Shown piece after piece: positions 2,948 to 20,801 of a DNA stretch of 23,339 bases. A program made the position numbers and the translations under genes. Location of the stretch: IMG/VR virus record IMGVR_UViG_3300042905_003458, positions 1 to 23,339 of that record, one strand, 5' to 3'. Source of the stretch: a virus. The notes beneath the pieces are model-generated. The model was not told the origin of the DNA. It saw only the letters and a program-made list of their open reading frames with translations, and ran no database searches. How positions within the stretch are numbered: position 1 is the stretch's first letter; each line of letters begins with the position of its first letter.

Positions 2948-4522
2948 ATGGATTATCAGGCGATCAAGGCCCGCCGCGCGGCGGCGCTGGGCGCGAAGCT
3001 GGCCTTCAAGCCGCTGCTCGACGAGGCCTTCGAGTTCGGCATTCCTTACCGGAAAGGAACCAGCGAAACCGGCGAAGGCGAGAAGCGCGTGAACCGCGTC
3101 TATGACGCCACGGCCATGGAAGCCTCGCTGCGCTTCGCCGGGAAATTCGCGCGCGACATCTTCCCGCCCGGCTTCTTCGCCATCGAACCAGGCAAGTGGC
3201 TGCCAGACGACACGGTGAAGGAAGAAATCCGCAAGCAGGTGGCGCCCGTCACCAAGGTGGTGGACACGTTCTTTCTCTCGGGCGAATGGGAGCAGGCCAA
3301 GGCCGAAATGGGCATTGACCTGTGCGCGGGCAACACCGCGCTTCTGGTGCTGAAAGGCACTCAGGCCAAGCCCTGCCGTTTCGTGGTGGCCCCCATGGAC
3401 GAGATCATGTTTGAGAATGGTCCGTTCAATGACATCACCGGCGTGTTCTGGGAGCGGAAATGGCCGCTGCGCGCCATCGCCGAGGAGTTCCCGAACGGTA
3501 AGTTTTCCGATGAATTGCGGCAGCGCATAGACAAGACGCCCGAAGGCACGATCACGCTCTATCAGGACACGGTGTGGGACAAGAAAACCAGCCGCTGGGT
3601 GCGTCATGCCTGGTGTGACGGTAATCAGGACATGATCATCGAAACCACCACGAGCCGCACCTGCCCATGGGTGACGCCGCGCTATTTCCGCGTGCCAGGC
3701 GAAGTCTATGGCCGGGGCGTGCTGATGCTGGCCATGCCGGCGATCCGCACGCTGAACGTGGCGCAGAAGATCATGCTTCAGGCGGCGGCCATTGCCATGC
3801 TGGGCATTTACACGGCAATCGATGATGGCGTGTTTAACCCCGATAATAGCCCCTTGCAGCCGGGCGTGTTCTGGAAGGTGGCGCGCAATGGCGGGGTGCT
3901 GGGGCCAAGCGTGATGCGCTTTCCGGACCCGCGCATCGACCTTGCCGGCATCCCCATCGACAAGCTTCAGATGCAAGTGAAAAGCGCCATGAACGACAAG
4001 GCGCTGCCGCCCGACACCGGCGCGGTGCGGAGCCCCACAGAGATCATCGAGCGGGTGAAGCAGATCGCCTTTGATGACGTTGGCGCTTTCGGGCGGCTGG
4101 TGCATGAGGGCGTGGTGCCGCTGGTGAAGCGCTGTGTGGAAATCGCCTATGACCTTGGGCTGCTGGGCCGCGAGATCAACATCGATGATTTCATATTGCG
4201 GGTGGAAGTGCGCTCGCCCATGGCCATGGCGCGCCAGCAGATGCGCAGCGAGAGCATCATGCAGTATTTCCAGATCGTGACAGCGGTTTATGGCGACAAT
4301 CCGCAGATGGTGGACCAGATGGTGCATCGCGACAAGGCGCTGGCGCATGTGGCCGAGGCGCTGATGGTGCCGGAGGATGTGCTGGTGACGACAAGCGAAC
4401 GCGAGAAGATTGCCGAGGCGCAGGCCCAGGCGCAAACCGCCCAGATGGTGGCCAGCGCGGCCATGGCGGCGCCGGAACAGGCGGTGGCGGCGGCAGAAGC
4501 CGCGGGAGGCATGGCATCATGA
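2948..4522 (+). CDS. Portal protein (head-to-tail connector, T7 gp8-like)
   Basis: A 524-residue protein, near the 536 residues of T7 gp8, that forms the dodecameric ring at the capsid vertex through which DNA enters and leaves. Family hallmarks are visible: VNRVYDATAMEASLRFAGKF and DIFPPGFFAIEPG near the N-terminus (compare the yDSTa...ltPp pattern of connectors), then GEVYGRGV at residues 251-258 followed by MPAIRTLN, the signature of head-tail connecting proteins. Residues from about 440 form a helical, Ala/Gln-rich C-terminal region (AEAQAQAQTAQMV) that would make the crown or barrel inside the head. It starts two bases after the previous stop and its end overlaps the next gene by ATGA, consistent with coupled translation. 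Confidence 0.93.
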   Translation: MDYQAIKARRAAALGAKLAFKPLLDEAFEFGIPYRKGTSETGEGEKRVNRVYDATAMEASLRFAGKFARDIFPPGFFAIEPGKWLPDDTVKEEIRKQVAPVTKVVDTFFLSGEWEQAKAEMGIDLCAGNTALLVLKGTQAKPCRFVVAPMDEIMFENGPFNDITGVFWERKWPLRAIAEEFPNGKFSDELRQRIDKTPEGTITLYQDTVWDKKTSRWVRHAWCDGNQDMIIETTTSRTCPWVTPRYFRVPGEVYGRGVLMLAMPAIRTLNVAQKIMLQAAAIAMLGIYTAIDDGVFNPDNSPLQPGVFWKVARNGGVLGPSVMRFPDPRIDLAGIPIDKLQMQVKSAMNDKALPPDTGAVRSPTEIIERVKQIAFDDVGAFGRLVHEGVVPLVKRCVEIAYDLGLLGREINIDDFILRVEVRSPMAMARQQMRSESIMQYFQIVTAVYGDNPQMVDQMVHRDKALAHVAEALMVPEDVLVTTSEREKIAEAQAQAQTAQMVASAAMAAPEQAVAAAEAAGGMAS

Positions 4523-7264: not shown

Positions 7265-7894
7265 ATGCCCATTACCGCCGACATCGACATTGTGAACGCC
7301 GCCTGCGCGCTGCTTTCCATCGACCCGTTGCAGAGCATGGGCGATGAAATGCCGGGCGGCCAGGCCGCGCAAATGCTTTATGACCCGATTGTGGAACTGT
7401 GCCTGGGCCTGGCGCCATGGTCTTTCTCGCGCCGCACCGGGCAATGCGCGCTGTTGGCCAGCGTCACCTCGCTTCTGGGCTATGGCTATGTGCATCAGCT
7501 GCCCGCCGACAGGATCGGCCTGCCGGACCGGCTGCTGGCCGATGCCACGGTTCCCGGATCGGCCATTCAGGCCTTCGAGTATGACGAGGAAGACCGTGTT
7601 CATTCGGACTGGAACCCGCTCTGGGCGCAATACACGGCGCGCACCCTGCCGGGGCGCTGGCACCCGGTGTTTCGCACGGCCGTGATCCATGCCGTGGCGG
7701 CTGGCTTCTGCGAGCTGCTGACCGGCAACAGCGGCATGGCGCAGGACCTGCACCAGAAGGCATTCGGCACGCCTTCCGAGACCTATCGCGGCGGGCTGAT
7801 GCGCGCGGCGCTGGCAGCCGATGGCCGCAACACCCCGGCACGGCGGCTGCCGGAAGGCTCCAACCCGCTGCTCGTGGCCTGGAACGCATCATGA
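7265..7894 (+). CDS. Tail tubular protein A (tail adaptor, T7 gp11-like)
   Basis: A 209-residue protein, close to T7 gp11 (196), that attaches under the portal and links it to the nozzle. GGAGG at 7256-7260 gives a good ribosome binding site for ATG 7265. The N-terminus DIDIVNAACALLSIDPLQSM has the usual start of this family (vNxaLxxlGxxpI). It is followed by AAQMLYDPIVELCLGLAPWSFSRR, equivalent to the a..ly......L...pWnFa region of gatekeeper proteins. The C-terminal half (VIHAVAAGFCELLTGN) is helical, ending in a stretch that overlaps the next gene by ATGA. Position between head genes and the nozzle supports the call. Confidence 0.87.
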   Translation: MPITADIDIVNAACALLSIDPLQSMGDEMPGGQAAQMLYDPIVELCLGLAPWSFSRRTGQCALLASVTSLLGYGYVHQLPADRIGLPDRLLADATVPGSAIQAFEYDEEDRVHSDWNPLWAQYTARTLPGRWHPVFRTAVIHAVAAGFCELLTGNSGMAQDLHQKAFGTPSETYRGGLMRAALAADGRNTPARRLPEGSNPLLVAWNAS

Positions 7895-9960
7895 GCGGGC
7901 AGGCGGCGCGCCAGCAAGCGGTGTTCAACAGCCTCGAACTGGGGCCGCGCCTCCATGAACGATCTGAACTGAAATACTTCAACACCGGGCTGGCCTATGC
8001 CCAGAATGTGGAAGCCCTGCCGCAAGGCGGCTTCGCCGTGCGCGCTGGCTTGCGCCACATTGGCACCACGCTTTCCACCGCCGCGCGGATTGTGGATTTT
8101 CAGGCCAATAACGGCACGGTGTTCGACATCATCTATGGCGCATCGACGGCGGAAGCCTGGGGCCAAAGCGCCATGATCACCAGCTATTCGCACCCCTATA
8201 GCGAGGCGCAGGCCCGCGTGATGGACCATGCGCAGGCGCTGGACACGCTTTTGACATTCCACGAGGATGTGGCCCCGCAGCGCGCGCTGTTCAACCCTTC
8301 AGGCAACAGCTTCAGTGCCGGGGCGGCGCCGCTGACGAATATTCCGGCCTATGACTATGGCGCGACCTACACCAATGGCGTGGCGGCGGTGTGGGATATT
8401 GATTTTCAGGGGCTTGAAGTTGGCGCAGGTGGCAACAACGACGTGACGCTGGGCGTCTATACGCTGACCCTGAACGGAATTGAGACGCTGCAAATCAAAT
8501 ACGCCGGCAACAACACGACAAATGCGTCGCGCATCTTCACGGCCCTGGAACAGACCGGGCTGTTGAAAAGCGGCTTCACCGTTGCGGCCGGAAGTGGCGT
8601 TGATGTGCGCGTGACTTTCTCCGGCACGGGCAATGTAGGCGATGACTGGGCTTTGTCAGGCCGCTGCGTGAACAAGGCCGATGCCGCCGTGGTGACATAC
8701 AAGACCACGGCGGGCGTGACGCCCGGAGAAGATATCATCTCAGCATCGCGCGGCTGGCCGCGCTGCGGGACGTTCTATCAGCAACGGCTGCTGATGGGCG
8801 GCCTCAAGAGCCTGCCCGGCAGCTGGATGGCCTCGCTTGCGGGTGAGTATTATAATTTCACGTCCAAGATCAAGGACGCGAATGGCAGCTTCGTGGCCAT
8901 CATGGACGTGCCCGGCGGCGAGACGGTGCGCAGGATTGTGAACAACACCTTCCTGCTGATCATGACCTCCAACACCAATTACTGGATCGCCGGATCGCAG
9001 GATGGGCTGAAGAAAACCGAACCGCCCAAGCACATTCCGGCTTCCGACCACGGCATCGCGGCTGGCGTGCCGGTGATCCAGAATGAAGGCGCGGCCGTCT
9101 ATGGCCACTCCTCCGGCGATTTCATCGGCGAGATGCGCTACACCGACACGGATGGCAATTATGTGTCGCTCGATATGTCCTTGCTGGCCTATCACCTTGT
9201 CGATGGGGTGATTGACCTGACGGCGCGGAAAAAGGCCGATCAGCAGGCCTGCAACCAGATTGCGGTGCTGAATGGCTCTGGCGCGCTGAACATCGCCTAT
9301 GTACTGCGCGAGCAGGAGATCACCGGTTTCGCCCGCGTCAACAGCGGTTGCGCCTTCAAGGCCGTGAACGCCAATGGCCGGAACGAGCTGGCCGTGGTGA
9401 CGGAACGTGGCGGCTCACGGCGGCTGGAACGCTTCGAGGCTGGCCTTCTGCTGGACGCGGCGGTGACGGTGACCAATGCGCCGGCCTCGGCCACGGTCAG
9501 CGGGCTTTCGCATCTGAACGGCTTCACAGTGTGGGCGCTGGCCGATGGCCATGTGTTCGGCCCCTTCGCGGTGAGCGGCGGGCAGATCACCCTGCCGATT
9601 GCCGCCAGCAGCATCACAGTGGGCACCTGGACGCCGCCCGTGGCAACCACGCTGCCGCTGCCCAGAACCCGTGGCGAGGGCATTGTGGTGAAGCGGAAAG
9701 GGCGCATTCACACGCTGCATGTGGAGATCGAGGACACCACCTCCCTGGCGATAGCGGCCAATGGCGGCCCGGCGCGTGATGTGGACCTGACCCGCTACGG
9801 CACAGTGCTGGCTGACCAGCCGGAACTGACCCAGGGCGTGAGCGGCACGGTGAAGATCAGCGGCCTTCAGGGCTGGAGCGACCTGCCGCAGATCACCATC
9901 ACGCAAACCCGGCCAGGACGGCTGACCGTCAAATCAGTTTCAATAGAGGCGAAGCTATGA
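7891..9960 (+). CDS. Tail tubular protein B (nozzle, T7 gp12-like)
   Basis: A 689-residue beta-rich protein that should form the hexameric stubby tail tube through which DNA and internal proteins pass. The N-terminus shows FNSLELGPRLHERSELKYFN then YAQNVEALPQGGFAVRAGL, the characteristic start of nozzle proteins (sGelsP.l.gRtDl.kY..g...a.N......G...rRpG). The central signature is GWPRCGTFYQQRLLMGG from residue 288, followed by SLAGEYYNFT; together these are the GWPr.v.f.qqRl.fgG...S..GdyfdF hallmark. It is somewhat shorter than T7 gp12 (794). ATGA overlaps at both ends join it to the gp11-like and gp14-like genes. Enzymatic function is neither expected nor seen. Confidence 0.88.
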   Translation: MSGQAARQQAVFNSLELGPRLHERSELKYFNTGLAYAQNVEALPQGGFAVRAGLRHIGTTLSTAARIVDFQANNGTVFDIIYGASTAEAWGQSAMITSYSHPYSEAQARVMDHAQALDTLLTFHEDVAPQRALFNPSGNSFSAGAAPLTNIPAYDYGATYTNGVAAVWDIDFQGLEVGAGGNNDVTLGVYTLTLNGIETLQIKYAGNNTTNASRIFTALEQTGLLKSGFTVAAGSGVDVRVTFSGTGNVGDDWALSGRCVNKADAAVVTYKTTAGVTPGEDIISASRGWPRCGTFYQQRLLMGGLKSLPGSWMASLAGEYYNFTSKIKDANGSFVAIMDVPGGETVRRIVNNTFLLIMTSNTNYWIAGSQDGLKKTEPPKHIPASDHGIAAGVPVIQNEGAAVYGHSSGDFIGEMRYTDTDGNYVSLDMSLLAYHLVDGVIDLTARKKADQQACNQIAVLNGSGALNIAYVLREQEITGFARVNSGCAFKAVNANGRNELAVVTERGGSRRLERFEAGLLLDAAVTVTNAPASATVSGLSHLNGFTVWALADGHVFGPFAVSGGQITLPIAASSITVGTWTPPVATTLPLPRTRGEGIVVKRKGRIHTLHVEIEDTTSLAIAANGGPARDVDLTRYGTVLADQPELTQGVSGTVKISGLQGWSDLPQITITQTRPGRLTVKSVSIEAKL

Positions 9961-10505
9961 CTTTCATTCTTCCCATGCTTGGAGGGCTGGCCGGGGCCGG
10001 TGGCGCGGCGGGCGGCGCGGCAGCCGCCGCCACCGGCGCGGTGGCCTCAGCGGGCAGCAGCCTGTTTTCGGCCTCTGGCCTTCTCTCAGGCCTGGCCACG
10101 GTGGGCGGCGTGCTGGCCTCCATGGGCGCGGCCAATGCCCAGGCGGCGGCCTACAAGAACCAGGCGTGGCAAAGCAAGATGGAGGCCGAGAACGAACGCA
10201 TCCAGGGCATGCAGCGCACCACCCGCATGAAGCGGGAGCTGGGGCGCATCGTGGGTGAAAGCGATGTGAACTATGCCGCGGCGGGCATCGACCTTTCGGG
10301 CGGCGTGGCCAAGGAAGCCCGCGACACGGCGGAAAGCCGCGCCACGTCGGAAATCTCCATCGACCGCGCCATGACCGAAAGCCGCCGCCAGACATTGCTG
10401 GCGCAGCGCGCCGTGTATCGCCAGATGGCCAAGGACGCCAAGAAGACAGGCTTCATGAACGCCTTCGCGGCGGCCGCACAGGGACTTGGGGGGCTTGCTG
10501 GCTGA
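9957..10505 (+). CDS. Internal virion protein, T7 gp14-like ejectosome component
   Basis: A 182-residue protein opening the internal-protein cluster. The first 60 residues are Gly/Ala rich and hydrophobic (LPMLGGLAGAGGAAGG, then GLLSGLATVGGVLASMGAAN), suited to insertion into a membrane. The rest is a charged helix (KMEAENERIQGMQRTTRMKR, ESRATSEISIDRAMTESRRQ) that closes with AAAAQGLGGLAG. This matches T7 gp14 in size (196), layout and place: after the nozzle and before the large internal proteins. gp14 is ejected first and makes the channel in the outer membrane. Similarity was judged by composition, the motif AAGxDlsgG and position. Confidence 0.78.
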   Translation: MTFILPMLGGLAGAGGAAGGAAAAATGAVASAGSSLFSASGLLSGLATVGGVLASMGAANAQAAAYKNQAWQSKMEAENERIQGMQRTTRMKRELGRIVGESDVNYAAAGIDLSGGVAKEARDTAESRATSEISIDRAMTESRRQTLLAQRAVYRQMAKDAKKTGFMNAFAAAAQGLGGLAG

Positions 10506-13120
10506 TGGCTTCTGAAATTGACCTGATGAACCCCATCGGCATTGCCCGGCGCGGCGCGCGCCGCTCACAGCCTATCGAAACCTTCGACCTGCGCGCGAAT
10601 GTGGCGGGCGATTTTGCCGACCTGCCATCACCCAATGGCGAGATGGCCATCGCGGCAGGTCGCGCCATTGCCGCCGTGGGCCAATCGCTGGCGAGGCTTG
10701 CCAAGGCCGGAGAAGACGCCGCGCTGGCGAAGGCAGTTGACAGCGCGGGCGCCCAGGGCGCGGCGGATGCCGCCGCCGGTGTGAGCATGCCCAAGGTAAC
10801 CGCCGCGCCGGAGATGCCCAAAGGCACGCGCGGCCAGGCCTCGGCGGCCAAGGCCTTTTTCGAAGGCCAGGGCTGGACGCCGGTGCAGGCGGCGGCCATC
10901 GTGGGCAACCTCATTCAGGAAAGCGGCCTGAACACCACGGCCAAGAACCCGAATGACCCCGGAACCTCCGTGGGCCTGGCGCAGTGGCACTCGGAGCGCA
11001 AGGCAAGGCTGGTGGATTTCGCGGCCAAGCGCGGCACGGACTGGCATGACTGGACGACGCAGCTCGCCTTCGTGCAGCATGAGCTGACCACCACCGAAGC
11101 CGCCGCCGCCAATGCGTTGCGGCAGGCATCGACCCTCGAGGATGCGGTGGCGGCCTTCATCGGCTATGAGCGGCCACAGGGCTGGAGCGCCGATAACCCG
11201 CGTGGCGGGCATGGATTTTCCAACCGGCTTTCATTCGCGAAGGAACTGGCGGGCGGCGGCAAGAGCGCGGCGATTGCTGTGGAAATCCCCGATGTGAAGC
11301 CTTTGCAACTCCGCCAGGACGGCACGCCGCAAGGCGCGGCCTATGACCAGGCGCTTCTGAAAACCGGCGCTTACCGCGCCAACACCGCCATGCAATCCGG
11401 CCTGGATGCGCTGGCCGAGCAATTCGCGGGAGACCCGGACGGCTTCGAGAAGGAAGCCGCGAAACTCAAGAAATCCTATGTCCAGGCTTTTGCCATGGAC
11501 CCCGCCATTCAGGCGACCGCTGATGCCAGTTTTGAGGCCAATGCCCTGCCGATCCGCCGCAAGCTGATAGCGGAGCGGGAAAGCAGCGCCAATGCCGAAA
11601 TGAAGGTGGCCGCCACCGAGGCGCTGGTGAGCCAGGGAAGCCTGCTCGAGAAGCAGGCCTATGGGCTTGGCATCAACGCCGATGCCGGGCCGCAGCTGGA
11701 GGGGCTGCATCAGCGCGCCATGCTGATGATCGATGAGGCGCTGGCGGCGGGCGCCATCAGCACGGCCGAGGCGGCCAGCAAGCGGCAGGATGTGCGATCC
11801 CGCCTGACACAGGCGCGGTTTGATGGCGTGTTCGATGCGCTGAAGACGCCCGCCGAAAAGACGGCCTTCGCGGAAAAGATGGCCAGCCCCGCCATGCGCG
11901 ATGAACTGCTGCAAAGCATGACGCTGGCCGACTGGCGCACCATGACGGGGCGCTATGCAATGGCCGCGCGGCAGCAACGCGAAGCCGCCGACGCCGCCGC
12001 CCGGGTGGACAAGGAGCGCTTCAAGGGCCTGGTGAAGGATGACGTGGCCTCGATTGCGGCCACTGGAAAACCGCTGGCGCTGGGCGGCGTGCCGCTGTCA
12101 GCGGCGGATGTGGCGCGGGTGCTGGGTCCGGACGGCGCCGCCAGCTGGGCGGCGGACCGCGCGCGGGCCTTGAAGCTGTTTTCCGGCACCGATGGCCTGG
12201 CCATGCTGAATGAAGACGCGATTGGCGCAAGGCTGGCCGCCATCGCGCCCAAGCCCGGCGCGGAAGGCTTCGCGGAAGATCAGAAACTGTTCGACACCGC
12301 CAGCCGCCAGGCGGAAAAAGTGTTGCGGCGGCGCGCCGATGACCCGGCGGCGGCGGTGGATGAGGCTTTCGGCCTGGCCAAGCAATTCGGCGAGGACAAG
12401 CAGGCGCTGGCCCAAGCGCGGCTTGATCACCAGGCGGCACTTGGCATTCCAGAACTTGCGCGGCAGCCGCTGACCAATGCCGAGGCGCGGGACTTCGCCC
12501 GCCGGTTGCAGCTTTACGAGGATGACCCTGCCGCGCAATCGACGCTGGCGCAGCGCATGGTGCTGGACCTGGACAGCCAATATGGATCCATGGGCGATGA
12601 AGCCATGGCGCAGGTGCTGCGCGTGAACGGCATGACCAAGGACATGTCTATCCTGCTGACGCAGGCCGCCAAGAGAACAGCCCTGGGCCAGCCGCTGACG
12701 CGGCCGAACTTGCAGGAGATTGACCGTACGCTGAGCTGGGAGCGGCCCGATGCGGCCATGAATGGCGCGCCTTCGCCGATGCCCGCCGCCCCGGCGCAAC
12801 CTGGCTTCGGCATTGGTCAGCGCACGCCGCAGCCGCAGACCAGCCGCCGCCCGGCCAGCAAAACGCCGGGACCGGCAAAGAAGGCAAAGCCCAGCTTGCC
12901 CAATGCGGGGGCGGTGGAATTCCTGCGCGCCAACCCGCAACTGGCAGCCGAGTTCGACCGGAAATATGGCCAGGGCCTGGCGCAGAATTACCTGACAGCC
13001 GCGCAGCGCGATTTCCGCGAGCGCCGCCTGAGCGACGGCAGCCGCGAGATTACCTATGAGGATGGCTGGGTCGAAACCATCCGGCCCGATGGGTCTATCG
13101 AGGGGAGGCAAGGCCCATGA
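10505..13120 (+). CDS. Internal virion protein with tail-lysozyme domain (gp15 position)
   Basis: An 871-residue protein in the place of T7 gp15, overlapping its neighbours by TGATG and ATGA. Residues about 108-245 form a phage tail-lysozyme domain: AKAFFEGQGWTPVQAAAIVG, NLIQESGLN with probable catalytic E139, SVGLAQWHSERKARL, and AVAAFIGYERPQGW. This fold cuts peptidoglycan, so the protein should open the cell wall during DNA ejection. After it come some 500 residues of mainly helical, Ala/Gln/Lys-rich sequence, then a Pro/Ala-rich linker (about 751-800). The end holds a compact tail with VEFLRANPQLAAEFDRKYG and a small beta repeat, EDGWVETIRPDGSIEG. In T7 the lysozyme domain lies in gp16, not here, so the domain order differs from the model phage. 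Confidence 0.86.
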   Translation: MASEIDLMNPIGIARRGARRSQPIETFDLRANVAGDFADLPSPNGEMAIAAGRAIAAVGQSLARLAKAGEDAALAKAVDSAGAQGAADAAAGVSMPKVTAAPEMPKGTRGQASAAKAFFEGQGWTPVQAAAIVGNLIQESGLNTTAKNPNDPGTSVGLAQWHSERKARLVDFAAKRGTDWHDWTTQLAFVQHELTTTEAAAANALRQASTLEDAVAAFIGYERPQGWSADNPRGGHGFSNRLSFAKELAGGGKSAAIAVEIPDVKPLQLRQDGTPQGAAYDQALLKTGAYRANTAMQSGLDALAEQFAGDPDGFEKEAAKLKKSYVQAFAMDPAIQATADASFEANALPIRRKLIAERESSANAEMKVAATEALVSQGSLLEKQAYGLGINADAGPQLEGLHQRAMLMIDEALAAGAISTAEAASKRQDVRSRLTQARFDGVFDALKTPAEKTAFAEKMASPAMRDELLQSMTLADWRTMTGRYAMAARQQREAADAAARVDKERFKGLVKDDVASIAATGKPLALGGVPLSAADVARVLGPDGAASWAADRARALKLFSGTDGLAMLNEDAIGARLAAIAPKPGAEGFAEDQKLFDTASRQAEKVLRRRADDPAAAVDEAFGLAKQFGEDKQALAQARLDHQAALGIPELARQPLTNAEARDFARRLQLYEDDPAAQSTLAQRMVLDLDSQYGSMGDEAMAQVLRVNGMTKDMSILLTQAAKRTALGQPLTRPNLQEIDRTLSWERPDAAMNGAPSPMPAAPAQPGFGIGQRTPQPQTSRRPASKTPGPAKKAKPSLPNAGAVEFLRANPQLAAEFDRKYGQGLAQNYLTAAQRDFRERRLSDGSREITYEDGWVETIRPDGSIEGRQGP

Positions 13121-16100
13121 GCGAGACCGCCAACCCCTTCGACCGCTTCGACGGCTATGTGCCGGAAGGCGAAGTTGTGACGCCTGGGCCGCGGCCGGGC
13201 TTCATCGAGCGCTTCCAGAACAATTACGACCAAGGCTTTTATTCCGGAACCGTAAGCGGCGCGGTGCAAGGCGCCTATGACCAGCGAGAGGAAAAGCGCC
13301 AGACAGCGGCCCGCTTCGAGGCCATGCCGCAATGGGAAACGCCGCTGGAAGGACTGGCGGCGCTGGGCGGCCAGCTGGCCGGGGCAGCCTCAAGCTTTGA
13401 GAACTACATTCCGCTGACCTGGGGCGCCAAGGCAGTTGGCTGGACCGGGATTAAGATGCCGCAAGTGGCGGCAAGGTTCTTCGCCGGGGCCATCGATGCC
13501 GGAACCGTGAATGCCGCCGTCGATACCGCTGTGCAGGGGATCGAGATCGGGCAGGGCCAGCGTGACAGTTTCAGCCCCGGCCAGCTGGCGGCCAGCACCG
13601 CGCTGGGCGCGGTGGCGGGCGGCACGTTCAATGCTGGCTTTGGCGCGCGCGCGCCCGCCGCCGCACCAGAGCCCGCGCCAATTGCGCCGGAGCCCGCGCC
13701 CAAGCCCGCGCCGGTTGCCGCGCCGCTGACCATGGGCGGCACGGCCACGGCGGAATTCGCGCCGCCTCCCATGCCGGTGACCATGGCCCCGCCAACCATT
13801 GGCGAGACGCTGGACGCCACGGCGCGCAGCCGCCGGAACCTTGGGCCTTCCACCGTGACGCCGCCGCCCGCGCAGCCCGTGATCGGCAATGCCGCCGATG
13901 CCGCCGCCGTGGCGGCAAGGCCCGGCCAGGCGGCTGGCACCTTCATGTTCGATGCCCGCCAGCTGGAGGTTGACGCCAATCGCTTCCAGTTCAAATCAGG
14001 CGGTGACGCCAAGGGCGTGACCGACACGCTGCGGAATGTGAAACGGTGGATCCCCGAGCGGGGCAACCAGCTGATCGTGTGGCAGGATGCGGCGGGGCGG
14101 AATTTCGTGGTGGATGGCCACCAGCGCACGGGGCTGGCCCGCCGGCTGCTGGACCAGGGGCTTGAGAACGACATTCAAATTCCGGGCGTCCTGTTCCGTG
14201 AGGCGGATGGCTTCACGCCTGAAAACGTGATGACCATTGCCGCGCTGAAGAACATCGCGGAAGGCAGCGCCAGCCCCATCGACGGGGCAAAGATCATCCG
14301 CCTGGCCGGACGCCAGGCGCTGGCGGACATGCCGCTTTCAAAAGATGCGGTGCGCACGGCGGCTGACCTTGCGTTGCTGAGCGATGACGCCTTCGGCATG
14401 GTGGTGAACGAGGTTGTTGACGCTGCGCATGCCAAATATGTGGGGCGGTTCATTCCCGCCGATCCGGCGCGGCAGAAGGCCGCCATGGATGCGCTGGCCA
14501 AGGCCGACCCCGCCAATGAGGACGAAGCCGCGGTGCTGGTGCGGCGCGTGGCCGAGGCGGAACTGGTGAAGGCTGAAAATGGCGCGCAGGGCGACATGTT
14601 CGGCACCGGTGCTGAAAGCACGGCCATCGAGGAAGTGAAGATCGTGGCCGGCGCCATCCGGGCGCTGCGATCAGACGCCAAGCTGTTCGCGCGCGTGTTC
14701 CGCGAAGCTGACCGCATCGAAAGTGCTGGGTCCATGGTGGCGCGGCAGGAAAGCCAGGATGCGGCGCGGCGCGCCGAACTGGCCGCGCTGATGGTGGAAA
14801 AAGAGGCCTTCCGCGCCGGGCCGCTGCGCGATAGACTGAAGCAACTGGCAATCGAGGTGAAGAATGACCGGCAATCCCTGGGACAGGCTCGCACAGCATT
14901 TCTCGACGAACTCTCCCGAACGGATTTCCGCCCTGATCAGGTCCGGGCTGATGCTGGCGGAGGGAGCGGCGGCGGAGAGCCTGCCGCCCCTGCCGCCCGT
15001 GACACCGCCGAACCCGGGGCCGATGGAAAGCCGCAAACCGTCCTGACGGGGGCGGAGCGCATCAGCGATGCCGAACTGGCCCGGCGGCGCACCGCCGAAC
15101 CCCTGAGGCCCCAGGCGGCCCAGAAGCTGACCATGGAAGACGGGCTTTTCGGCGATGGCTCGAAGCAGCCAGATTTTCTTTCCGCCGCCGCCGGGCTTCA
15201 TACCGGCTCAATAACCCGCCAGCCCATGGGCATTGGCGGCATGGCGGCCAACCCCGGCTTCACCCGGTTGCAGGACATTGCCGAGCGCCTGGGCGAGGCG
15301 CTGAATGTGGTGGCGGTGCGGCAGGGGCGCCTTAGCGCCAAGGTGGGCGGCAAGACGGCGGCCGGGCAATATGGCACCAGATCAGGCGTGATCCGGCTGA
15401 AAAAGGCCGATGATTATGACGTGTTCGCGCATGAGCTGGGCCACCATGTGGAAGCGGCCATGGGCAAGCCCCTGAAGCAGTTGATGGCCCAGCATGCCAG
15501 CGAGCTGACGCCCATGGCCTATCAGGGCGCGGACCCCAGGATGCTGGTGGAGGAAGGCTTCGCTGAATATATGCGGATGTTCGCGACCAACCCGCTTTAT
15601 GCGGCGCGCGAGGCCCCGGCCTTCGACAAGGCCTTTCGCGCCTATCTGGCCGCCGATGCGCCGGATGCGCTGAAAGCAATCGAGGAGGCCGCCGCCGCCT
15701 GGCGCGCCTGGAACGAGCAGCCTTCCGCCGATGTGGTTGCCGCGACCGTGGTGACGGGCAAGGAACCGGGGTGGTTCGCCAAGGCCCGCGCCGACATGGC
15801 CATGCATGGGCTGGCGGGCACCATTGCGCAGCGGCTGCATGGCATTTACGAAACCCGCTTCGACACCATTCACCCGATGACACGGGCCGTGCGCGAGCTG
15901 GCGCGGATCTACAAGCGCAACACCGGCGGCAAGCTGCTGGAGCTGCGTGATTTCGACAACCCGATGAAGCTGATCCGCACCGCGCGCATGGCGCATGGCG
16001 CGGGGCACCGTGACGTGCTGGAAGGGGTTTCGCCCTACCGCGCATTCACACCGCAAGGCCCCAATCTGCGCGATGCGCTGGTGACGGCGCTGGGCAAGCC

Positions 16101-18846
16101 CAATGTGCTGTCTGGCTGGGATGATGCCGCCTTCCGGCGCTTCGGCGCCTATCTGTGGAGCCGGCGCGCGCTGGGCGAATGGGACCGGTTCGACCAGGGG
16201 CTTATTCCCAACCCGCCGGACAAGCTGACGCGCGGCGACCATGCCATGAATGTGGCGGAGGCTGAAAAGGCCTTCCCCGGCTTCAAGGCCGCGGCGGACA
16301 TGGTTTATGAATGGAACCGGCTGCTGTGGACCAAGAAGCGCGATGCCGGGCTGATCACCCATGAGCAATGGGAAGAAGGCCTGAAAATTCGCGATTATGT
16401 GCCGGGCGTGCGCGCCTTCGACGCGGCGGGCGATGCCGCGCCGGGCGGCGGCGGCAAAGGGTCTCTCAAATCCGGGATCGTGAAACGTTTCCGGGGATCG
16501 CGGCGGGACGTGATCAACCCGTTCGAAACGCTGGTGCAGGACGCCTACCACACCGCCGAGGCCATTGCCCGGAATGACGCCATCAAATTCCTCGACCGCC
16601 TGGCGCTGCAGGCCGGGCCAGGCGGTGGCGCCATTGCCGAGCGCATTCCATCGCACCGCATGAAGGCCACCATGGTGGACGCCATCGAGGCGGTGGAGGC
16701 GGCGGCCAAGCAGGAAGGCATGGCCAAGGCGGACATCGTGGCGCTGCGTGACCTGCTGGAAGGCCTGCTTGGCGATGAGAAGGCGGCGATCTTCCGGCCC
16801 GCCATGATCAATGAACAGGGCGAGCCGATTGTGTTCTTCCGCGATGGCGGCGAACTGAAGGCGCTGCGGCTGGCGGATGGCGATTTCGGGCGGCAGATGA
16901 TGACGGTGCTGAGCGGCATGACGCCGCCCGTCAAGGACATGTTCCTGGAAACCTTCGTGAAGACCGCCGCCATCGGGCGGCTTGGCGTGGTGACTGATCC
17001 GGTGTTCATGGTCAAGAACGCCATCCGGGACATGGTGCAATCCATCCTGTTCTACGGAAAGCCGTTCGAGCGCGTGGCCAATACCTTCCGCGGCGCCGCC
17101 GACGAGGCCTTGCAGCGCGAGGCGGCCCGGCAATATGCGGCGGCGGGCGGCGTGATGGGCGGCGTCTATACCCAGACGGCGGGAGAGCTCCGCTGGGGCC
17201 GTGACATGAATGCGCTGCGCGTGATGGGCTGGCGGGCCGGGCAATTCACCACGGTGGATGGCTTCCTGCAGGCCACCGAATTCAGCGAAAGCGCCATGCG
17301 CTTCGGGCTTTTCCGCACCTTCTTCGACGAGGCCAAAGGCCGTGGGCTGGATGACAATGCCGCCATCTTCGAGGCCGCCTACCGGGCGCGCGACCATGCG
17401 GATTTCTCGCGCCACGGATCCCGCATGGTGACGCTTGGGCGGCTCATTCCGTTCTTCCGCGCCTCGCTGGTGGGTGTTGACAAGTTCGCGCGGCAAACAG
17501 TGGTGCCGCTGCTGCGTGAGCCGCTGACGGCCGAGGATGCCCGCGCCCGCGCCATGGCCATGAAAAGCTGGGCGATGATCGGCGGCGCGGTGCTGGCCTG
17601 GCTGCCCATTCACGCCATGATGGCCGATGATGAATATTACCGCGAGGCCCATGCCCAGCGGGCGCGGAATTTCGTTTTCCGCTACGGTGACAGCTACATC
17701 ACCATACCAAAGCCCTATGACCTGGCCGTGTTCTTCAACTCGGCGGAGGCCATCTGGGATGCCTTTATGCTGCAAGACCCGCGCGCCGCCGCCCAATGGG
17801 TGGAGGCGCTGCGCACCACCGCCATGCCGCCGGACATGCTGCAAGGCAACCCGCTGATGAAGACGCTCATCGAAATGCGGACCGGAAAAGACATGTTCAC
17901 CGGCAATGACATCGTGCCGGAGGACATTGCCGGGCTGGAGCCCTTCGCGCAGGCAACCGAGCGCACCAGCGCGCTGGCAACCGCCATCGGCGAGGCCATC
18001 AACAAGCCGCCGGTGTGGGTGGATCAGCTGATCCTGAACGGCTTCACCTCCATGGGGCGCGCGGCGCTGAGCCTTTATGATTATGCCGCATCCGACAAGC
18101 CCATGCCGGGGTGGGATGACACGGTGATCACCATGGGTTTCATCAAGGATGCCTCACGCGGGGCCACCTCATCCCGCGCCTTCTGGGACATGGTGGGCGA
18201 ACGGAACGGCAGCCTGGCCACGGCGCGCCGCACCTATGACGCCCTGGCAAATTCCGGTGATGCGGCGGCGGCGGCCGAGTTTCTGGCGGGGCAGGATGCC
18301 ACCACCCGCAACTGGATTGCCGCCGGGACGGTGGACATGGCGGCCCGGCGCATTCACCCCTTTCAGCGCGCGCGGGACGCCGTGGCGGCCATCAGCAAGC
18401 TGCGGCGCGATCTGGCCAGCCCGGAGATCGACACCGCCACCGGCCCGGTGACGCTGGGCCGCATCGACCGTGGCGCGGCGGACGACATTCTGAGCCAGCT
18501 GCAGTTCGCCGAGGCACGCAATGCCCTGGTGATGATGCAGGTGCCGGGCTGGCAGGACCGCGAGCTGATCGAGACGGCGGGCTTCTTCCGCGAGCTGGCG
18601 GCGGCGCAGCCGGATGTGGGCCGCGCGCTGGCGGACCGGCTGGCCACGGCCCGCGTGCTGCCGCTGGACACGGTGGAACGGCTGTGGCCGGAATTCGAGC
18701 AGCGGCTGGCGCGAGACGGCTCCGCCGCCATGGTGGCTGACCTGGCCGCCCAGGCCAAGGGGGCGGGCTTCGAGGCCAATGGGCAGGCCATCAAGCGGAA
18801 GCAGCGGGCCGCCGTGCCCGGAGAGGCTGTGGCGCCCGCGCCTTGA
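13117..18846 (+). CDS. Giant ejected polyvalent protein: ParB-like, metallopeptidase-like and LPD38-type regions (gp16 position)
   Basis: A 1909-residue protein, last of the internal virion set. Residues 74-177 hold Gly/Ala-rich, possibly membrane-active segments, followed by an Ala/Pro linker to about 260. Residues about 276-430 look like a DdrB-type ParB-like domain, with FMFDARQLEVDANRFQ and VDGHQRTG (D333-R337). A Gly/Ala/Pro linker spans about 612-645. Residues about 700-860 carry a zincin motif, AHELGHHVE, with probable zinc ligands H772 and H776, catalytic E773 and a second element EEGFAEY (E813 and E817). From about 890 to 1540 the sequence resembles LPD38-containing large polyvalent proteins: RDYVPGVR (1092-1099), DPVFMVKNAIRDM (1294 on), a hydrophobic helix (1485-1503) and IPKPYD (1530-1535). 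By position it should leave the virion with the DNA. ATGA links it to the gene before. Domain names are recognised from motifs; the activities are inferred. Confidence 0.8.
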   Translation: MSETANPFDRFDGYVPEGEVVTPGPRPGFIERFQNNYDQGFYSGTVSGAVQGAYDQREEKRQTAARFEAMPQWETPLEGLAALGGQLAGAASSFENYIPLTWGAKAVGWTGIKMPQVAARFFAGAIDAGTVNAAVDTAVQGIEIGQGQRDSFSPGQLAASTALGAVAGGTFNAGFGARAPAAAPEPAPIAPEPAPKPAPVAAPLTMGGTATAEFAPPPMPVTMAPPTIGETLDATARSRRNLGPSTVTPPPAQPVIGNAADAAAVAARPGQAAGTFMFDARQLEVDANRFQFKSGGDAKGVTDTLRNVKRWIPERGNQLIVWQDAAGRNFVVDGHQRTGLARRLLDQGLENDIQIPGVLFREADGFTPENVMTIAALKNIAEGSASPIDGAKIIRLAGRQALADMPLSKDAVRTAADLALLSDDAFGMVVNEVVDAAHAKYVGRFIPADPARQKAAMDALAKADPANEDEAAVLVRRVAEAELVKAENGAQGDMFGTGAESTAIEEVKIVAGAIRALRSDAKLFARVFREADRIESAGSMVARQESQDAARRAELAALMVEKEAFRAGPLRDRLKQLAIEVKNDRQSLGQARTAFLDELSRTDFRPDQVRADAGGGSGGGEPAAPAARDTAEPGADGKPQTVLTGAERISDAELARRRTAEPLRPQAAQKLTMEDGLFGDGSKQPDFLSAAAGLHTGSITRQPMGIGGMAANPGFTRLQDIAERLGEALNVVAVRQGRLSAKVGGKTAAGQYGTRSGVIRLKKADDYDVFAHELGHHVEAAMGKPLKQLMAQHASELTPMAYQGADPRMLVEEGFAEYMRMFATNPLYAAREAPAFDKAFRAYLAADAPDALKAIEEAAAAWRAWNEQPSADVVAATVVTGKEPGWFAKARADMAMHGLAGTIAQRLHGIYETRFDTIHPMTRAVRELARIYKRNTGGKLLELRDFDNPMKLIRTARMAHGAGHRDVLEGVSPYRAFTPQGPNLRDALVTALGKPNVLSGWDDAAFRRFGAYLWSRRALGEWDRFDQGLIPNPPDKLTRGDHAMNVAEAEKAFPGFKAAADMVYEWNRLLWTKKRDAGLITHEQWEEGLKIRDYVPGVRAFDAAGDAAPGGGGKGSLKSGIVKRFRGSRRDVINPFETLVQDAYHTAEAIARNDAIKFLDRLALQAGPGGGAIAERIPSHRMKATMVDAIEAVEAAAKQEGMAKADIVALRDLLEGLLGDEKAAIFRPAMINEQGEPIVFFRDGGELKALRLADGDFGRQMMTVLSGMTPPVKDMFLETFVKTAAIGRLGVVTDPVFMVKNAIRDMVQSILFYGKPFERVANTFRGAADEALQREAARQYAAAGGVMGGVYTQTAGELRWGRDMNALRVMGWRAGQFTTVDGFLQATEFSESAMRFGLFRTFFDEAKGRGLDDNAAIFEAAYRARDHADFSRHGSRMVTLGRLIPFFRASLVGVDKFARQTVVPLLREPLTAEDARARAMAMKSWAMIGGAVLAWLPIHAMMADDEYYREAHAQRARNFVFRYGDSYITIPKPYDLAVFFNSAEAIWDAFMLQDPRAAAQWVEALRTTAMPPDMLQGNPLMKTLIEMRTGKDMFTGNDIVPEDIAGLEPFAQATERTSALATAIGEAINKPPVWVDQLILNGFTSMGRAALSLYDYAASDKPMPGWDDTVITMGFIKDASRGATSSRAFWDMVGERNGSLATARRTYDALANSGDAAAAAEFLAGQDATTRNWIAAGTVDMAARRIHPFQRARDAVAAISKLRRDLASPEIDTATGPVTLGRIDRGAADDILSQLQFAEARNALVMMQVPGWQDRELIETAGFFRELAAAQPDVGRALADRLATARVLPLDTVERLWPEFEQRLARDGSAAMVADLAAQAKGAGFEANGQAIKRKQRAAVPGEAVAPAP

Positions 18847-18875
18847 CGGGCATCTCGCCGGTTTACCTTGCGGCC

Positions 18876-20801
18876 ATGAGCGTGACCCTGCCGATTTCAG
18901 CTTCCACCCGCCGCATGGCCAGCGCAACCGCGACGGCCGGTCAGACGGCTTTCCCCTACACATTCCCGCTCCTGCGCGCTAACGACATCCGCGTGCGGCG
19001 CACCCGCGCGGGCGTGACGGTGACGCTTTCACAAAGCACGGACTACACGGTTTCCGGCGTGGGCAATGCCGCCGGCGGCACGGTGACGCTGGTGGCGGGC
19101 TCCCTGGCCGGAGACATCATCGACATTGACGGGCTGGCCGGGCTGGACCGGGTGACCGGGGTAACCTCGGCGGGGCGGTTTTCATCCGCGCAGATTGACC
19201 GGGACCTTGACCTTACCGCGATACGCGATCAGGAACTGCGCCGCGACATCGACCAGGTTGTTTACCAGACGGCAAACATCCCGGAGTTGCGGGAAAACAT
19301 TCAGGACATCGTTGGGGCAATGATGCGGGCCGGTGTCAACGCATTTGTCACCTATGACGATGTAAACAACACGATTTCAATATCTGCGGGCAATTCAAAT
19401 AGCATCAGCCCCAAAACATATGGCGCGATTGGAGATGGCACAACGGACGACACCGTTGCTCTTCAAACTGCAATAAATGCCGCCGCAGTCTTAAATCTGC
19501 CTGTTATTCTTGATGGACATTATCTTGTAAAAAATCTCACCATTCCGGCATCTGACATTTACTCGTCGGATATGCCGTTTTGGAAGTTTACCACACGCCT
19601 GATCGGTGTTCCCGGAACTGTTATCGAGCGCATTTCAGGCGGCAACACGGCCTACATGATGGCTTCTCAGCGGTGGGCAGAAAACATTCCCTATGGCTCA
19701 TCCCCTGTTTGGGTGCAGAACATTCGCTTTGATGGCGGCTTTTTGTGTGACAACGTATTTGTTAATGTAGGATATGCAAGTGTTTTTACCGACTGTATTT
19801 TTGAGCGCGGCAATGGCGACGGTTTTCTAGAGCCGGCCACAACGCTAAATGGAACGACGATTTCCGGCTCCCGTGCTCTAAACCGCTATACAGGCAACAA
19901 ATTCCGCAATAACAAGGGGATAGGCTTTGCTGTCGCTGGTGCGATTGGCGCCAACTACAACACAGACTGTTGGTTCGAAAATAATGAATTATATGATAAC
20001 AACCGCAACGCTTCATTTGGCCAAGCCGCAGGCTGGAAAATCATCGGCAACCACGCATGGAACTACGCAGTTGCTCCCGGCGTTTCAGAAAATTGGAGCG
20101 TCTATCTACAAAATGGAAATGTCGCCACGCTTTCCAATAACATCTGGGAAGGCTATGCGCAGCAGACGTCAGGATTGCTGGTTAATTGCGACGGCCTGCC
20201 ACCTCGGATCATTGGCGACAACTTCCTTAATGGCCTGGGTCTGGAAGTGTCTTTCTCTGCCGCTTCAACGCTGCTCGTTCAAGGATGTGCATTCTTCGGG
20301 CCATTCGCAACTCTGCGCCACGGCACATCTGGTAACGGCCGTGATATTCTTAGCATCAACAATGCTTTCAACGCCTCGCCGCCGTATGTCTTCCTAGGCG
20401 GCGCTGGTCACCTTGGCCGTATTATAAGCCGGGATGACGTGGTTCAAGGCAACACGCGCATTCTCACGGGAATGCAGCGCCACAATGTGCTTGCCGCTCA
20501 GACTGTGGAAGGGATTAGCTACTGGACGGCAGATGCGGACTTCCAATGCACCGACGCAATTTGCACTGTTATTCGAGTTGGTGTAGCGCCGACCGGCACC
20601 CGCAACTTCACACTGGATCAAAATCCCAGTTTTGGAATGCGCAGAACCCTAGTCCGCAGCGCATCTGGAAGCGGCTCGAACACAATAAATGTTTATGCGT
20701 TTGGCTCAGGCTCCATTCTAGCTGCAGTTGGGCCAGGATCATCATGGACCTTCCAATACGATGGAGCCGGCTGGTTCATCGAAGCCCAAGGCGCAGCATA
20801 A
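18876..20801 (+). CDS. Tail fibre/tailspike: T7-type N-terminal anchor and pectate-lyase-like beta-helix
   Basis: ATG 18876 gives 641 residues; the frame stays open to a TTG at 18843 that overlaps the previous stop, but that TTG has no ribosome binding site at the right distance (neither does the ATG). Residues about 10-135 resemble the T7 gp17 N-terminal domain that attaches to the tail: ATAGQTAFPYTFPLLRANDI, DYTVSGVGNAAGGTVTL and a helix FSSAQIDRDLDLTAIRDQEL. From about residue 178, PKTYGAIGDGTTDDTVALQT is the classic entry into a right-handed beta-helix of the pectate-lyase/glycosidase type. It is followed by Asn/Gly-rich coils (NNIWEG, NFLNGLG) and a small C-terminal domain. The protein probably binds and may cleave surface polysaccharide. 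GC falls sharply in the beta-helix part (19 of 60 bases at 19741-19800 against 45 of 60 at 18961-19020). Confidence 0.87.
   Translation: MSVTLPISASTRRMASATATAGQTAFPYTFPLLRANDIRVRRTRAGVTVTLSQSTDYTVSGVGNAAGGTVTLVAGSLAGDIIDIDGLAGLDRVTGVTSAGRFSSAQIDRDLDLTAIRDQELRRDIDQVVYQTANIPELRENIQDIVGAMMRAGVNAFVTYDDVNNTISISAGNSNSISPKTYGAIGDGTTDDTVALQTAINAAAVLNLPVILDGHYLVKNLTIPASDIYSSDMPFWKFTTRLIGVPGTVIERISGGNTAYMMASQRWAENIPYGSSPVWVQNIRFDGGFLCDNVFVNVGYASVFTDCIFERGNGDGFLEPATTLNGTTISGSRALNRYTGNKFRNNKGIGFAVAGAIGANYNTDCWFENNELYDNNRNASFGQAAGWKIIGNHAWNYAVAPGVSENWSVYLQNGNVATLSNNIWEGYAQQTSGLLVNCDGLPPRIIGDNFLNGLGLEVSFSAASTLLVQGCAFFGPFATLRHGTSGNGRDILSINNAFNASPPYVFLGGAGHLGRIISRDDVVQGNTRILTGMQRHNVLAAQTVEGISYWTADADFQCTDAICTVIRVGVAPTGTRNFTLDQNPSFGMRRTLVRSASGSGSNTINVYAFGSGSILAAVGPGSSWTFQYDGAGWFIEAQGAA

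Follow-up and report, generated by a model that had tools for sequence, protein, structure and literature searches.

The ejection module and its giant gene

The window, meaning the whole stretch of DNA that was analysed, is the 23,339-base virus record IMGVR_UViG_3300042905_003458, probably a fragment. Its structural genes follow a T7-type order: large terminase, portal, scaffold, capsid, tail tube A, tail tube B, a gp14-like protein, a lysozyme in the gp15 slot, a giant gene encoding 1909 amino acids, and a spike. The large terminase was called from its Walker A motif, its PHROG match to terminase being weak. The genes on which the argument draws are these:

2948..4522, + strand: portal (head-tail adaptor; phrog_332, E 2e-58)
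7265..9960, + strand: tail tubular proteins A and B (phrog_394, E 6e-16; phrog_376, E 2e-76)
9957..10505, + strand: gp14-like internal virion protein (phrog_418, E 2.6e-5)
10505..13120, + strand: gp15-slot protein with a Phage_lysozyme2 domain at residues 112-236 (PF18013, E 2.5e-28)
13117..18846, + strand: polyvalent ejection-slot protein of 1909 amino acids, whole gene (open reading frame and Pfam search)
18843..20801, + strand: tail spike with a pectate-lyase-like region (Pfam/PHROG-type profile matches)

The initial annotation had placed the giant gene in the slot of T7 gp16, and the gene order from portal to spike supports that placement. The slot (tail tube A/B, gp14-like, gp15-like lysozyme, giant gene, spike) is preserved across about 30 distinct relatives. 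Since the relatives include prophages in Ancylobacter, Cohaesibacter, and other Alphaproteobacteria, "T7-like" refers here to the ejection module and not to the family Autographiviridae.

The reading frame lies at 13117-18846 on the plus strand, as first described, and the motifs that had been picked out within it are found where they were said to be: DGHQR at residue 333, AHELGHH at 771 (with H772, E773, and H776), EEGFAEY at 812, RDYVPGVR at 1092, DPVFMVKNAIRDM at 1294, and IPKPYD at 1530. In 2,000 shuffles of the protein, HExxH arose by chance in 1.6% and DGHQR in 0.1%, and the combination of HExxH with a motif of the E-x-x-x-E type 20-70 residues downstream arose in none (0 of 2,000). A ParB fold, a zincin fold, and LPD38 all lie within this one reading frame (their activities being predicted from the folds), and late virion genes adjoin it. 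Several unrelated domains and a late virion neighbourhood are features of large polyvalent proteins, and the assignment of the protein to that class is supported.

Domains of the 1909-residue protein

The following parts can be distinguished within the product:

13195..13632, + strand: conserved N-terminal leader, residues 27-172 (HMM match in 39 core-bearing reading frames and in the separate cargo gene of the split loci L023/L043 and L033)
13642..13944, + strand: linker rich in proline and alanine, about residues 176-276 (sequence)
13945..14910, + strand: ParB/sulfiredoxin-fold cassette and the helical domains that follow it, residues 277-598, with DGHQR at 14113-14127 (AlphaFold2, mostly pLDDT >90; Foldseek; VIA)
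14911..15249, + strand: low-confidence linker between cargo and zincin, residues 599-711 (pLDDT mostly under 50)
15250..15732, + strand: zincin-like metallopeptidase domain, residues 712-872, with HELGH at 15430-15444 and EEGFAE at 15550-15567 (pLDDT about 97; VIA; HExxH conservation; hhalign)
15754..18843, + strand: C-terminal body, residues 880-1909, a mostly alpha-helical, conserved unit (AlphaFold2, pLDDT 82.5 and pTM 0.73, both for the model of residues 870-1909; BFVD matches)
17554..17628, + strand: the sole hydrophobic, membrane-like segment conserved in the family, residues 1480-1504 (mean hydropathy across 64 rows)
17626..18123, + strand: Pfam LPD38 (PF18857), residues 1504-1669 (E 6.4e-31)

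The AlphaFold2 model of residues 265-880, built on 89 aligned rows, has a mean pLDDT of 82, rising above 90 across most of the ParB and zincin parts. The ParB/sulfiredoxin fold proper spans about residues 277-400, and helical domains come after it. Foldseek gives as the top match of this N-terminal part Noc (7nfu, E 6.9e-4, over a 216-column alignment), followed by ParB with CDP or CTP and, lower in the list, sulfiredoxin; VIA aligns the ParB part with 6sdk at Z 8.3. The pocket residues D333, G334, H335, Q336, and R337 are kept in 22 of 22 ParB rows, and with them the G-x-x-R of the ParB/sulfiredoxin superfamily pocket (G334 and R337). The ParB-like domain proposed from the DGHQR context is therefore supported as a fold. 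A PDB search with its sequence returned nothing, and in structure alignment A2 some ParB fragments are misplaced at 812-822, where the alignment is noisier for it.

The Pfam ParB and ddrB-ParB models match neither this domain (PF18763 gives no match at E<=1) nor the other members scanned, whereas one relative (L044) carries in the same position a true PF18763 domain, at E 3.6e-32. For this reason the cassette is taken, by sequence, as a ParB-fold family of its own, and the profiles do not assign it to the DdrB clade.

For the metallopeptidase, VIA aligns residues 715-850 with two M34-type zinc protease domains (Z 9.0 and 8.1), the Pfam matches in the region being weak and below threshold. HExxH sits on a helix within the zincin fold, and every aligned relative selected without reference to HExxH retains it (59 of 59). 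By hhalign, eight C-terminal regions of the N4 type match the zincin family at 93% (E 2.9e-7), at the C1 region of the N4 virion RNA polymerase (vRNAP); against zincin and body together they match at 79%, at the zincin only, and column-shuffled and reversed controls stay below 1%. The moderate Z scores of 8-9 gain weight from the conservation of HExxH and from the N4 match, and the zincin core that had been proposed around H772, E773, and H776 is supported. Both domains for which structure prediction had been named as the deciding check are thus favoured by it. The third zinc ligand, initially taken to be E817, may instead be E813: both are conserved, but the EGFAE motif had been used to retrieve almost all of the rows, which keeps its conservation among them from being independent evidence. 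Protease activity is predicted from the model of the fold. In two proteins, gp44 of Pelagibacter phage HTVC034P and PTXU04_00025, the body is present and HExxH is not, so the zincin is evidently dispensable in some lineages.

The match to the fold of a Pro-Pro endopeptidase suggested proline-proline cleavage sites in the linkers, but there is no enrichment of such sites (83 observed against 87.6 +/- 7.8 expected), and no cleavage site was found.

The initial annotation had also recognized LPD38-type sequence. The Pfam match is strong (108.4 bits, against a gathering cut-off of 27), but it lies at residues 1504-1669 and not, as had been thought, across 890-1560. Pfam LPD38 in fact covers only a minor portion of the conserved unit, which is much larger and consists of the zincin and about 1,050 mostly helical residues. 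Foldseek of the body in BFVD gives matches at E<1e-3 to 76 viral proteins, many of which align over about 1,000 residues with a TM of about 0.6; they are named as large polyvalent proteins or after other domains (RelA/SpoT, methylase, LT_GEWL). The PDB holds nothing convincing by fold (best Foldseek E 0.18; best VIA Z 6.4, to a helical bundle) and nothing by sequence. A search with PTXU04_00025, which is of the LPD38 type, also finds matches in giant proteins of Shiga-toxin-converting, Bacillus, Pelagibacter, and Vibrio phages.

Exchange of cargo and splitting of the chain

In about 90 relatives, the zincin and body form the C-terminal part of proteins ranging from 1,233 to 4,981 residues. What lies between leader and zincin differs. 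In L002, L028, and a few others this bay is empty, leader and zincin being joined by nothing but a Pro-rich linker about 110-150 residues long. Among 47 N-terminal parts, the cargo is ART-PolyVal in 11, PBECR1 in five, Zeta_toxin in three, ROS_MUCR in two, and LPD23 in two, with single cases of InPase (pyrophosphatase), ddrB-ParB, SLT, GNAT, and SNF2. The nearest relatives of the 1909-residue protein do without ParB: L002, 53% identical, aligns over residues 5-176 and then 682-1897, omitting the cassette. On the body tree, parsimony puts the number of changes in the presence of ParB at six, and well-supported branches call for at least four, the tree having been made by a quick method and L026, whose start is cut off, having been counted as lacking ParB. 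These alignments indicate that a constant leader and a constant zincin-body unit flank an exchangeable cargo bay.

The ROS/MUCR domain, a bacterial transcription regulator found in the bay of two relatives (alignment A4 N-parts), is possibly another injected cargo. A linker motif, GAERI...LAxRR...PL...GLFGD, occurs at the end of the cargo, at about residues 634-691 (15016-15189) here and at 923-979 of the L023 cargo protein, with 55% identity.

The ParB cassette itself is found beyond these proteins. In another group of podoviruses it occurs as a stand-alone gene between the gp15-type protein and a virion protein of 824-836 residues (phrog_684); the latter was considered as the body and ruled out. 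In the gp16 slot of Prochlorococcus phage P-SCSP1g (OM416768, 7624-15312), a 2,563-residue protein carries the same ParB family at residues 456-775. In L008 the cassette is found together with Zeta toxin. Such movement among unrelated ejection-slot proteins is consistent with an injected function. In the study of the P-SCSP1 phage group, internal virion proteins had been named solely from the size and position of their genes (PMC9860041), and the present comparison adds a domain to ejection-slot proteins of cultured phages that its authors left unannotated.

Several other occurrences may be recorded. A Zeta-toxin kinase domain and the ParB cassette share one chain in three different proteins (L007, 4116-11045; L008, 8963-12196; L056, 3698-13576). 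The P-SCSP1g protein has HESFH at residue 1204, possibly marking a second zincin clade, though the profile match (4.5%) is only suggestive. The PHROG profile phrog_21, labelled portal protein, ends in the same ParB family (1015-1329 of 1362), which suggests portal-ParB fusions elsewhere. Finally, Dunaliella viridis virus SI2 (HQ332136) has a green alga filed as its host, yet it has genes for tail tube, gp14-like protein, ParB, and an 830-residue virion protein of the kind that belongs to a bacterial podovirus, and the host was probably entered in error.

The chain is not always continuous. In L023 and L043, whose bodies are 65% identical, one gene encodes the leader with the ParB cargo and a second, set apart from it by intervening genes, encodes the zincin with the body, while in their close relative L056 all the parts lie in one chain of 3,293 residues. 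The break falls at the junction of cargo and zincin, so that the zincin goes with the body and not with the cargo. L033 shows a similar split with the genes overlapping in different frames, where a sequencing frameshift is possible. The existence of the two-gene form beside the fused form implies that the halves can work as separate chains. The split and fused forms are the main comparative support, drawn from sequence, for a function in two pieces and for the zincin as what may separate the pieces where they are fused.

A proposed delivery chassis compared with known systems

The means by which phages bring working enzymes, as well as DNA, into a cell by way of a narrow tail are still being worked out. 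Among the ejection proteins of this short-tailed phage, the 1909-residue protein is probably the largest: a delivery chassis with replaceable cargo, in which the zincin would cut the chain and the ParB-fold domain would be the current cargo. Packaged in the internal core of the virion, it would leave by the tail alongside the gp14- and gp15-type proteins. The leader and the LPD38-containing helical body may carry it into the virion and then through a conduit of gp14/gp15 type into the host, where body and leader could take up a position at the inner membrane like that modelled for T7 gp16 (PMC8954989); the one membrane-like segment is thin evidence for insertion. The zincin, at the junction of cargo and body, would most likely cut the chain, either before packaging or after entry, and the cargo would be freed from the channel-forming body. 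In the host, the ParB-like enzyme might then act on DNA or nucleotides within minutes of the start of infection. That the protein is carried in the virion and enters the host is suggested by analogy with JC1 gp69 (PMC9144972) and N4 vRNAP (PMC12633501).

One may ask whether the zincin acts on the chain or on the host. If zincin and ParB were both effectors, the protease would cut host proteins (defence or transcription factors) while ParB attacked host DNA or nucleotides. The relatives hold cargoes that are typical of effectors (ART, Zeta toxin, PBECR), the solved structures closest in fold to the zincin, at Z 8-9, are secreted endopeptidases with foreign substrates, and Iyer et al. allow for such a role (PMC5512222). 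But the zincin stays with the constant body while the effectors change, it remains with the body in split loci, and the fold match shows no substrate. A role against restriction, raised in the initial annotation, finds no backing: the protein has no methylase, helicase, ArdA/DarA, or other defence-related match, and PADLOC and NCBIfam give no match for it. Self-processing of the chain seems to fit the comparative data better, and we regard a pair of effectors as unlikely. Less likely again is a structural part for both domains, the zincin fold serving assembly with no protease activity and ParB being a passive DNA-binding component of the ejectosome. T7 gp16-C does bind DNA with no sequence preference (PMC8954989), encapsidation in N4 depends on the region around the zincin (PMC5512222), and the best matches of ParB are DNA-binding proteins. 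However, a passive role sits poorly with an H-E-x-x-H that never varies in rows picked without regard to it (a sign of metal binding and catalysis), with the complete conservation of the ParB pocket, and with the dispensability of ParB in close relatives.

That the protein is not ejected at all, but is made late or remains inside the capsid and has its role in assembly or within the producing cell, is very improbable. P1 DdrB is indeed processed before packaging (PMC5512222). Nevertheless, the slot between the gp15-like protein and the spike argues for ejection, as does the presence of a homologue, JC1 gp69, in virions (PMC9144972), and as does N4 vRNAP, which has a related zincin and is ejected (PMC12633501).

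Injected multi-enzyme proteins have been proposed before. The 1909-residue protein is a polyvalent protein in the sense of Iyer et al. 2017, who defined the class and proposed that such proteins are processed by metallopeptidases (PMC5512222). The DarB-like giants of Bcep22, BcepIL02, and Burkholderia phage JC1 share with it the C-terminal body, LPD38, an HExxH upstream, several unrelated enzyme domains, and the virion neighbourhood. BcepIL02 gp70 (4,667 residues) has the same body by hhalign (99.7%, E 2.7e-26, 711 columns) and HEAFH upstream of it; its zincin, compared as a single sequence with that of the 1909-residue protein, gives no signal. Its homologue JC1 gp69 was represented by 51 unique peptides in the mass spectrometry of CsCl-purified virions (PMC9144972). 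The giants differ in their length, 4,500-4,700 residues, and in carrying transglycosylase-like, methylase-like, and helicase domains (PMC9144972), whereas the present protein has 1,909 residues and ParB, with lysozyme in the gp15-slot protein. P1 DdrB and the DdrB-like ParB proteins (PF18763) likewise join a ParB/Srx fold to a zincin in a phage protein, but PF18763 matches L044 and not the ParB of the 1909-residue protein.

T7 gp16, with 1,318 amino acids, is the largest ejection protein, as the 1909-residue protein would be, and occupies the same slot between a gp15-type protein and the tail fibre or spike. It has an N-terminal lytic transglycosylase, however, which by Pfam is absent from the 1909-residue protein, where lysozyme is encoded by the preceding gene. 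In phiKMV, too, the gp15-slot protein (gp36) carries lysozyme and a large protein, gp37, lies in the gp16 slot; gp37 differs in its annotated endolysin domain, and profile comparison found no LPD38 body in it. Comparison by hhalign of the body with gp16 of T7, phiKMV, and P-SSP7 was negative, but the positive control, phiKMV gp37 against the T7 family, failed as well.

The best-studied case of enzyme delivery by a phage is the N4 virion RNA polymerase. Gp50 of N4 (Schitoviridae) is the largest ejection protein, as the 1909-residue protein would be, with a related zincin and the same order of N-domain, enzyme, zincin, and large helical domain. It is ejected, and comprises an N-domain, the polymerase, C1 with HExxH, and a helical C2 of about 1,125 residues with no known structural relatives (PMC12633501); it is packaged unprocessed (PMC5512222), so that self-cleavage does not hold as a general rule. 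It has an RNA polymerase where the 1909-residue protein has ParB (a single-subunit RNA polymerase domain was sought in the latter by Pfam and Foldseek, with no match), and the profiles of C2 and body show no sequence kinship (0.5%), even with five distant LPD38 relatives added. We would entertain, as a tentative and rather doubtful extension, that N4-like phages and T7-slot podoviruses share an ancestral ejection chassis of leader or N-domain, zincin, and a helical body of about 1,100 residues, in which the enzyme between leader and zincin has been exchanged (among its forms RNA polymerase, ParB, ADP-ribosyltransferase, Zeta toxin, and RNase) and is freed by the zincin on entry. If so, the 1909-residue protein would be an analogue of N4 vRNAP with ParB in place of polymerase.

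A constant leader and body around an exchanged enzyme, with fused forms beside split ones, amount to natural experiments on which part carries the delivery signal and on whether the protease releases the cargo. The class has been known since 2017; what is added here is a constant leader-zincin-body chassis in the slot of T7 gp16, with its exchangeable bay, the gain and loss of ParB, the split and fused forms, and the kinship of its zincin with that of N4.
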